Shown piece after piece: positions 12,974 through 15,898 of a DNA stretch of 64,000 nucleotides. Each line of letters opens with the position of its first letter. Within the stretch, counting starts at the first letter, position 1. The position numbers were made by a program, and so were the translations under genes. The notes beneath the pieces are model-generated. The model saw only the letters and a list, made by a program, of their open reading frames with translations, was not told the DNA's origin and ran no database searches. The stretch comes from Rhodoferax sp. (GTDB lineage Bacteria; Pseudomonadota; Gammaproteobacteria; Burkholderiales; Burkholderiaceae_C): NCBI RefSeq assembly GCF_010365055.1, contig NZ_JAAFHA010000006.1:1-64000 (forward strand), given 5' to 3'.

Positions 12974-15898
12974 TCAGCCCAACAACAACTGCCGCAGCAC
13001 AAACGGCAATATGCCGCCCGCGTGGTAGTAATCCACCTCGATCGGGGTGTCAATGCGCAGCAGGACCGTAACCGACAGACTGCTGCCGTCGGCGCGGGTG
13101 ACGACCAGTTGCACATCGCTCTGCGGGCGCAAATCCAAGTCGGGGACGATGTCGATGACCTCGTTGCCAGTCAGCCCCAGCCCTTGCCAGCTGTCGCCGG
13201 CCTTGAACTGCAGCGGCAACACGCCCATGCCCACCAGGTTGCTGCGGTGAATGCGCTCAAAACTTTGCGCCACCACCGCCTTGATGCCCAGCAGCTGGGT
13301 GCCCTTGGCGGCCCAGTCGCGGCTGGACCCGGTGCCGTATTCCTCGCCGGCAAACACCACTGCGGGCGTGCCTGCGACCATGTAGCGGGTGGCGGCGTCG
13401 AAGATGAAGAGCTTTTCGCCGACGGCGCCCGCACCCTGCCCTTCGGCGGGGGCCTGGTACAGGGTCAGGCCGCCTTCCTCGCGCGAGCCGTCCGCCAACG
13501 GCGGGATCATCAGGTTTTTGATGCGCACGTTGGCAAAGGTGCCGCGCACCATCACCTCATGGTTGCCGCGGCGCGCGCCGTAGGAGTTGAAGTCGGCCTT
13601 TTGCACGCCGTGGGCCAGCAGCCACTGGCCGGCCGGAGAACTCTCCTTGATGGCGCCGGCCGGGGAAATGTGGTCGGTGGTGATGGAGTCGCCAAACAGC
13701 GCCATGATCCGGGCATTGCGCACAGATTCAGAGCCTTTTTGGCCTCTAGCCCCCGTGTCTATTGCTTTAGTGGCTTCACTTTCCATAGTGAAAGTGAAGA
13801 AGAACGGCGGCTCGGCGATGTAGCTGCTCTTAGGCCAGCTGTAGGTGGTGCCGGCCACACCTTTGATCTCCTCCCACAGCGCGCCGGGCTCGGACGCAAT
13901 GCGGGCGTAGTTCTCGCGAAAGGCCTTGCCGTTCATGGCGAACTTCATGAGCGCCGCAATCTCGTCGCTGCTGGGCCAGATGTCCCCCAGAAACACATCC
14001 TTGCCCCCGGTGCCCTGCCCCACCGGTTCGGTCATCAGGTCGCGCAACACCGTGCCGGCAATCGCGTAAGCCACCACCAGCGGCGGGCTCGCCAGAAAAT
14101 TGGCCTTCAGGTTGGGGTGGATGCGCGCCTCGAAGTTGCGGTTGCCCGACAGCACTGCGGCGCAGACCAGGTCGTTCTGGCCGATGACGGCGTTGAGCTC
14201 GGGCGTCAGGTCGCCGGAGTTGCCAATGCAGGTGGTGCAGCCGTAGCCCGCCAGGGCAAAGCCGAGTTTCTCCAGGTAGGGCAGCAGCCCGGTTTGCGTG
14301 AGGTACTCGGTGACGATGCGCGAACCCGGCGCCAATGACGTCTTGATGTGCGGCTGCACGGTGAGGCCCGCCTCGACGGCCTTTTTGGCCAGCAGGCCCG
14401 CCGCCAGCAGCACGCTGGGGTTGGAGGTGTTGGTGCAACTCGTGATGGCGGCGATCAGCACGTCGCCATGGCCCACCGTGGTGTGCCGGGGGGTGTGCTG
14501 CGTTGCAGTGACGGCGTCGGATGGGCTGGCGCTGGCCAGGGCGGCTTCCAGGGTGGGTCGATTGATCTCCATCTCGGCCAAATCACGGGGCGCGCCGGGC
14601 GGGAGCGGCGGCGCCGGCGGTGCTTCACCGGTGGCAGTGGCGCTGCTAACCGGGTAACGCTTGAGCAGGCGCTCGGCTGGCTGGTTAAAACCGTTGCTGG
14701 CCCCTGACTGGCTGAACAGGTCGGCAAACTGCGCGGCCACGCGGCCCAGTTCGATGCGGTCCTGCGGGCGCTTGGGTCCGGCCAGACTGGGGGTCACGTC
14801 GCCCAGGTCGAGCTTGACCACTTGCGAATAGTCGATCTCGCCCGCGAGCGGCACACCGAACAGGCCCTGCGCCTTGAAGTAGGCCTCGAAGGCCTCGATT
14901 TCGCTGGTGGTGCGGCCCGTGCCCTTGAAGTAGTCCATGGTTTCTTGGTCCACCGGGAAAAAGCCCATGGTGGCGCCATATTCAGGCGCCATGTTGGCGA
15001 TGGTGGCGCGGTCGGGCAGCGCCAGCGTGCGCGTGCCTTCGCCAAAAAACTCGACAAACTTGCCCACGACCTTGTGCTGGCGCAGCGTCTGCGTGACGGT
15101 GAGCACCAGGTCGGTGGCGGTCACGCCCTCGCGCAGGCGCCCGGTGAGCTCAAAGCCGACCACGTCGGGCGTGAGCAAATACACCGGCTGGCCCAGCATC
15201 GCGGCCTCGGCCTCGATGCCGCCGACACCCCAGCCGACCACGCCAATGCCGTTGATCATGGTGGTGTGGCTGTCGGTGCCCACCAGCGTGTCGGGGTAAT
15301 AAATGCCGTCTTTCGATGTGTGCACGCCGCGTGCCAGGTACTCCAGATTGACCTGGTGCACGATGCCAAAACCCGGCGGCACCACGCCAAAGGTGTCAAA
15401 TGCCTGCATGCCCCACTTCATGAACTCGTAGCGCTCGCGGTTGCGCTGGAATTCGAGGCTCATGTTCAGGTCCAGCGAGTTTTTCTTGCCATAGTGGTCG
15501 ACCATGATGGAATGGTCTACCACCAGGTCCACCGGCACCAGCGGCTCAATGCGCCGCGGGTCCAGCCCCAGGCGTTGCGCGGTGCTGCGCATGGCCGCCA
15601 GGTCCGCCAGCAGCGGCACGCCAGTGAAGTCCTGCAGCACCACGCGCGACACCACAAACGCAATTTCGTCGGTGCGCGGCGCGTGCGGCTGCCAGCCGGC
15701 CAACTGCGCCACATGGTCGGCGGTCACTTTTTTGCCGTCGCAGTTGCGCAGCACCGATTCGAGCACGATGCGCAGGGAAAGCGGCAGACGCTTGATGTTG
15801 GGGAACTGGCGCGCCAGCGCAGGCAGGGAGAAGAGCTTTCCCGTTTTGCCAGAGGCAGTTTCAAAAGTCTTGAGCGTGGCTGCAAAGGCGTGGGTCAT
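12974..15898 (-). CDS. acnA: Aconitate hydratase A with an in-frame repeat insertion
   Basis: This enzyme of 974 residues isomerises citrate to isocitrate in the TCA cycle. Cluster-ligand and active-site motifs are clear: [12 protein letters not shown], the Cys in [23 protein letters not shown] and the swivelling-domain [10 protein letters not shown]. The start at 15898 (MTHAFAATL) has an AGGAG sequence at good distance; the frame is open 20 codons further. It is longer than the usual 890-910 residues. Part of the excess (about residues 708-732, [16 protein letters not shown]...) lies where a dispersed intergenic repeat (13736-13780) has been read through in frame, in the linker before [26 protein letters not shown] low-complexity linker is another part. 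A palindromic motif sits about 80 nt upstream. Confidence 0.95.
13736..13780 (-). repeat. Dispersed CTAGAGG repeat, copy 2, inside acnA
   Basis: On the minus strand the segment reads AAGCAATAGACACGGGGGCT followed by AGAGGCCAAAAAGG, matching the CGGGCTAGAGGCC end of the other five copies while the ATAGCT end is degraded. It lies wholly within the aconitase coding frame and adds residues without breaking it. Confidence 0.6.

Follow-up and report, generated by a model that had tools for sequence, protein, structure and literature searches.

A dispersed element of ~60 bp laid over codons and intergenic DNA in Rhodoferax, a candidate DNA recognition motif with a worn copy in the aconitase linker

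Has an intergenic repeat become coding sequence inside the aconitase gene of this Rhodoferax genome, and did it get there as an insertion? An earlier note on the 64-kb stretch of DNA analysed here (the window) placed copies of a dispersed element between genes at 3173, 19730, 45208, 49861 and 50668, and proposed that one more copy had been inserted in frame into acnA, where it added about 20 residues and produced a lineage-specific form of the enzyme.

When trained on 99 copies taken from the same genome outside the window, a profile recovered the five intergenic copies as strong matches. These lie at 3160..3214 on the minus strand (30.7 bits), 19728..19781 on the plus strand (49.5 bits), 45206..45259 on the plus strand (41.4 bits), 49851..49915 on the plus strand (51.8 bits, the best in the window) and 50665..50720 on the minus strand (41.8 bits). 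They are followed by the copy inside the acnA linker, at 13739..13792 on the minus strand (15.6 bits, E 4.6e-4), and by no others at E <=0.01. The next-best match, at 59706-59735, scores 9.1 bits (E 0.051), and the reversed window yielded at best 5.8 bits (E 0.54) with the same profile. Additionally, the tail of the element, CGGGCTAGAGGCC, has nine matches in the window with up to two mismatches against 1.97 expected, and none of 100 shuffles contained nine or more.

The acnA gene occupies 12974..15958 on the minus strand as one intact frame of 994 aa. It encodes an aconitate hydratase of the AcnA/IRP1 type and matches chain 2b3x of human IRP1 at E 7.9e-270. As proposed, the reading frame runs through element-related sequence in a variable linker that immediately precedes the C-terminal domain; this linker, from PPFF to ARIMALFGD, covers 84 nt (13715..13798, minus strand). 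The copy is weak and worn compared with the intergenic ones: only the 3' half comes near an exact match, and the ATAGCT half is missing and reads GAAGCC. The gain in length is also smaller than the 20 or so residues first put forward, amounting to 13 residues relative to IRP1 and to 11 codons relative to the 51-nt linkers of short-linker relatives. When we looked for homologous residues in proteins whose genes lack the DNA element, the outcome was divided. IRP1 lacks the residues altogether, while the nearest relative (L002) has a linker equal in length to that of the window and no DNA match to the element. From its sequence, the L002 linker is read as a probable eroded copy.

To place this linker among its orthologs, we took the best 80 of 506 relative-encoding loci from a scan of genome contigs and added the window's own, which gave 81 AcnA. 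By record title, the relatives are mostly Comamonadaceae (Acidovorax, Polaromonas, Rhodoferax, Curvibacter, Ottowia and others), and the linker before ARIMALFGD ranges from 51 to 117 nt. A family-wide profile built from intergenic copies only, with acnA masked, produced many sense-strand matches in the linker, the top one at 51.1 bits (E 1.4e-14), and 162 synonymous-shuffled and reversed acnA controls reached at best E 0.064. At E <=0.03, 38 of the 81 linkers carry the element, 16 are long without a match and 27 are short. In all 38 carriers, the motif lies at one linker site, on one strand and in one codon phase, with no net indel; most read, exactly or nearly, TTT GCT NTN GAN ... GCT GCN NNC GCA ... 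GCT NNA GGC CAA. The site is thus shared across much of this family rather than being specific to one lineage. That the acnA match is a chance resemblance in a linker of merely variable sequence is scarcely credible: the window's own copy does score weakly under the family-wide model (12.4 bits, E 0.022), but its orthologs score far higher, the carriers agree in site and phase, and the shuffle, reversed-window and synonymous-shuffle controls are all weaker, so that this candidate explanation was rejected.

Four loci (L005, L008, L028 and L058) have matches off the linker; these fall within 255 nt of the beginning of the stop-to-stop frame and are taken to be upstream of the start codon. On the AcnA tree, the short-linker state needs 18 changes, at least 13 of them forced by starred branches, and several short linkers look like recoded remnants of the long form. 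Among the 60 same-genus genomes searched, many of them incomplete, no close AcnA was seen in most; three (G036, G043 and G032) encode a more distant AcnA type (63-64% identity), whose linker is short and lacks the element.

The intergenic copies take different forms in different lineages, reading CAAGCGCT in the Acidovorax group (n=31) and AC..GGGCT in Polaromonas/Rhodoferax (n=24). The acnA copies lean to the intergenic form of their own lineage (17 vs 12 copies, p 3.7e-5), although members of one lineage share ancestry. Of the 17 Acidovorax-group acnA copies, 10 still score towards the other group. Six shifted controls gave p values from 0.013 to 0.998, two of them at 0.013-0.014. This test excluded intergenic copies that contain indels or N and kept all acnA copies. 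The apparent agreement of acnA forms with lineage counts as tentative support.

Across this genome (G000), the element is ~60 bp long with the consensus TTGCTATTNAATTNATAGCTGCTTGCGCNTATTNNACGNGGGCTAGAGGCCNATTTNNTATAAAT, in which 21 of 57 fixed letters are G/C by hand count. It occupies at least 150 sites; all 150 scored candidates passed, the worst at E 2.1e-5. The 358,533 bases surrounding the strongest copies hold 113 distinct copies. The genome search for the element inside other genes, suggested in the earlier note, was productive, as 34 of these copies lie wholly within long reading frames. Thirty of the 34 distinct frames were compared with NCBIfam and 4 were omitted; 24 matched and 6 did not, and the frame matching D-amino acid dehydrogenase (L193) was excluded because its copy lies upstream of the matched span. 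The resulting coding set comprises 25 copies in 23 frames of many unrelated genes, the best matches being MoeA, PurL, RNase II, YgiQ, TilS, SelO, ThiL, PurK, NadD, KamB, DnaX (2 copies), EarP (2 copies), PdxR, RlmI, UvrA, RsuA, an FAD-linked oxidase, Cca, asparaginase, 3-hydroxyisobutyryl-CoA hydrolase, TrmJ, NadE and RlmD. Several of these matches are under the curated cut-off (RNase II far under), and in the FAD-linked oxidase and TrmJ the copy is at or beyond the edge of the matched span.

The coding copies, which were selected by high score in this genome, run with the gene in 10 cases and against it in 15. Their information profile correlates at 0.92 with that of 79 copies outside the listed reading frames (9 of the 113 copies are in neither set), and the information sums to 71.2 bits in the coding set and 65.9 bits in the non-ORF set, the smaller set being biased upwards. 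Invariant columns among the 79 copies are few and scattered, with no short near-exact core of ~9-12 bp; a helical period of 10-11 bp in the information profile had p 0.062 and is not claimed.

Copy number divides the genus. Among 60 same-genus genomes, this one included, the distribution is bimodal, with 29 element-rich genomes (>=44 copies, the top count being at least 91) and 29 element-poor genomes (<=16 copies); these limits were set after the counts had been seen, and genome completeness varies. Two genomes (G055 and G062) fall between the classes and are counted in neither. Three coding sites, all discovered in G000, follow this division when presence is scored at 15 bits or more: the PurL site is present in 17 of 20 rich and 2 of 10 poor genomes (G020 and G054), the TilS site in 16 of 21 and 0 of 9, and the Cca site in 16 of 20 and 0 of 9. 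The remaining rich genomes score below 15 bits (3/20, 5/21 and 4/20, respectively). Rich and poor states are mixed on the PurL tree, with 6 changes, at least 3 of them forced by starred branches. This tree is unrooted, and the midpoint was used as reference; since motif sites lie on both sides of the midpoint, repeated loss is the simpler history. Near relatives can differ strongly: G023 has 64 counted copies, G020 has 3 and G054 has 5. Because the PurL copy is still detectable in the poor G020 and G054, the loss there may be recent. In a separate observation, the PurL linkers of three other genomes (G046, G007 and G063; loci L243, L249 and L254) lack the motif and contain peptides of apparently two other repeats, VIASEARQS...DCHVAGAPRNDG and SSRARPGIHGLRVTPAMT, as if, judging by the sequence, the linker accepted several repeat families.

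To compare the coding sites between these classes, 14 genes chosen from the 23 were aligned between G000, two further rich genomes (G059 and G048) and two poor genomes (G006 and G003). The footprint is unchanged in length relative to both poor genomes in 9 of the 14 and relative to one of them in 2, and 3 (MoeA, YgiQ and UvrA) gain 8-19 aa; acnA and PurL also gain length at the motif site. The PurK footprint is gapless against the three PurK chains of solved structures shown, and that of RlmI has a two-residue gap against 3c0k. In Cca, the conserved LTIN(S/A)IA is encoded in rich genomes by, for example, CTT ACT ATT AAT TCG ATA GCT and in poor genomes by GC-rich synonyms. Collectively, the insertion that became coding, which the earlier note proposed for acnA, does not describe the element in general.

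These alignments bear directly on the possibility of a mobile palindromic repeat akin to the Rickettsia palindromic elements, which would transpose and survive as in-frame insertions in tolerant places. Both the Rickettsia elements, as the available text of PMC10969869 describes them, and the present one are dispersed palindromic repeats found in frame inside many unrelated genes; the former, however, are insertions of ~150 bp that add a peptide. Here, an in-frame insertion that lengthens the host protein is found in a minority of genes only. The length gains in acnA, MoeA, YgiQ, UvrA and the PurL linker are what such a repeat would produce, as is the use of open frames only. A few very similar copy pairs point the same way: among 104 copies, 2 of 5356 pairs exceed the simulated maximum of similarity (variance 0.00395 vs 0.00292), one of the two pairs being at contig ends, and since these pairs are more alike than independent positions allow, some copying occurs. 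On the other hand, the similarity of most copies does not exceed what independent positions would give, most coding footprints and PurK in particular show no added length, and the Cca codons are recoded rather than displaced. We therefore regard a mobile repeat of this kind as unlikely.

A test of synonymous third positions considered codons that share their amino acid with a poor genome and scored them against the consensus of the 79 non-ORF copies. Third positions match this consensus in 98/122, 72/98 and 75/95 cases in the three rich genomes (73-80%), compared with 33/86 and 22/82 in the two poor genomes (27-38%), and a control in which the consensus was shifted into the flanks matched at 22-27% in all five. 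Similarly, third-position GC in the rich genomes is 0.29-0.34 in footprints vs 0.77-0.78 in flanks, and in the poor genomes 0.51 and 0.64 vs 0.64 and 0.77. Pairs of rich genomes agree more often at the third positions under motif letters than at those in flanks (G048-G059, 150/175 vs 1170/1656, p 1.2e-5; G000-G048, 163/184 vs 1181/1645, p 2.3e-7; G000-G059, 161/185 vs 1331/1739, p 8e-4), with p values that are optimistic because codons are not independent. Unconserved positions of the footprints resemble the flanks in these pairs (25/33, 28/38 and 29/35, which are small counts). In comparisons of rich genomes with the poor G003, motif positions are less alike than flanks in all three pairs (for G000-G003, 32/89 vs 862/1419); with the poor G006, one of three pairs is below 0.05 (G000-G006, p 0.042), and the other two have p 0.32 and 0.37. 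This pattern of conservation at motif positions fits better with site-by-site maintenance than with block copying.

REP elements with RAYT transposases are dispersed, partly palindromic repeats, and they resemble the present element in these respects and in that the same genome carries a RAYT. A RAYT-like Y1 transposase frame of 249 aa lies at L259:1438-2187 (contig C119 of this genome) between two motif copies, the downstream one overlapping its 3' end. The element might accordingly be a REP moved by this transposase, whose single-stranded copies would overwrite DNA of partial similarity at the replication fork. Overwriting without indels does fit an oligo-like replacement; of the 30 RAYT loci fetched, 14 come from rich genomes, with a motif copy adjoining the gene in 9, and 16 from poor genomes, with a copy in none. 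We nevertheless consider this explanation improbable. Block replacement should disturb the unconserved footprint positions, which instead resemble the flanks; the copies flanking the RAYT look like one shared inherited site; and, unlike REP elements, the present one shows no conserved hairpin pairing, lies in coding sequence and has a copy number that RAYT presence does not track. RAYT matches at E <=1e-20 occur in 52 of the 60 genomes, rich and poor alike, and RAYT presence was rejected as the switch of copy number on these grounds, although the transposase may have a part. The data lend no support to carriage by phages or plasmids: one exact pattern, which covers only 12 of 104 own copies, matched 2 viral contigs, and one motif copy as query gave a single weak plasmid match, so that these searches are weak evidence of absence.

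The hairpin question also bears on whether the element acts as RNA, as a terminator or structured RNA that settled at the ends of genes and, now and then, within them. By eye, the five intergenic copies of the window are at or near the ends of open reading frames, and some Acidovorax intergenic copies form good hairpins followed by T; from this set of 67 intergenic copies, 3 were dropped because their context touched masked sequence. However, RNAalifold found no consensus base pair in 54 copies, the observed pairing of the palindrome arms is close to that expected without covariation, and the folding energy of the 79 non-ORF copies equals the mean of column-shuffled sets. The 25 coding copies gave a lone value of -2.3 kcal/mol. 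The only Rfam match above gathering score in the window is a tRNA at 27660-27741, so that the copies there match no Rfam family. Coding copies in both orientations to the gene further weaken this reading, which we hold to be very unlikely; RNA structure was rejected for want of an Rfam match, an RNAalifold pair and any excess of covariation or energy. Because the arms do not covary, the data argue against a hairpin and for recognition as duplex DNA.

On balance, we somewhat favor the reading that the element is a motif recognized in duplex DNA, that the trans-acting system maintaining it has been lost more than once, and that acnA is one worn site. A putative trans-acting factor would recognize the double-stranded motif whichever way it runs relative to the gene, and the sites would be maintained by selection or by biased recombination. 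Where a lineage lost the factor, sites would erode genome-wide and their codons would drift back to GC-rich synonyms. The acnA copy would be one such site, placed in a tolerant linker of a protein 11-13 residues longer; in this genome, it is already worn. Against the recognition motif we count that no reader gene was found, that the first formation of a 60-bp motif inside a conserved gene is unexplained, and that MoeA, YgiQ, UvrA, acnA and PurL gain length.

As to what such a motif would do, its closest analog might be a long signal for DNA uptake or for addressing the chromosome, a role that is a guess. DNA uptake sequences are short (10- to 12-mers), and to our knowledge no known uptake or segregation signal approaches ~60 bp. 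According to the available part of PMC3630211, the uptake sequences of Neisseriaceae likewise have many copies inside and outside genes, with the reading frame as a limit, and they have lineage dialects, which the lineage forms seen here may resemble; they are, however, ~10-mers numbering roughly one to six thousand copies, whereas the present element is ~60 bp long, graded and found in at least 150 copies. The fuller version of this idea, in which a ~60-bp address signal is written into housekeeping codons and intergenic DNA, read by an undiscovered Comamonadaceae factor and erased genome-wide upon each loss of that reader, is offered tentatively, as somewhat less probable than its opposite.

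A related motif is on record. Tong, Schliekelman and Mrazek (2017; PMC5217627) list the pair ATAGCT(N)22CAAAAG of Polaromonas naphthalenivorans, with 125 copies (101 intergenic and 18 in genes), as a potential novel motif, and the accessible text gives it no function. The present consensus, ATAGCT(N)22CTAGAG, is equal to that pair in first box and spacing and similar in the second box. In the same text, Rhodoferax ferrireducens T118 has the most motif pairs (140) among the scanned genomes, which does not imply identity with the present motif. The accessible portion of PMC5217627 does not describe the codon overlay, the lineage forms, the family-wide acnA site or the rich/poor split, and the overlay and the split did not turn up in the accessible portions of the literature searched. 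The BRE (PMC3110155) is also a dispersed betaproteobacterial repeat that occurs in Rhodoferax and Polaromonas and sometimes in genes. As far as the available text describes it, it differs from the present element in being ~90 bp long, with 64-79% GC (69% in Bordetella), and in tandem at some loci; identity with BRE was rejected on GC and length alone.

If the recognition reading is true, codon choice in PurK, NadE, Cca and further conserved genes of a group of environmental bacteria is constrained by a signal in the DNA itself, and codon-usage and selection tests would be distorted there. Moreover, the bimodality and the contrast of G023 with G020 and G054 provide a clean comparative design for finding the reader gene and the purpose of the signal.

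Two further features of the window were observed. Many GG-rich nonapeptide-like repeats, resembling those of calcium-binding secreted proteins, occur in a pair of long frames of 1275 and 716 aa at 28631-34656. A 115-nt direct repeat, 85% identical, occurs at 54001-54115 and 56311-56425, 2310 nt apart.
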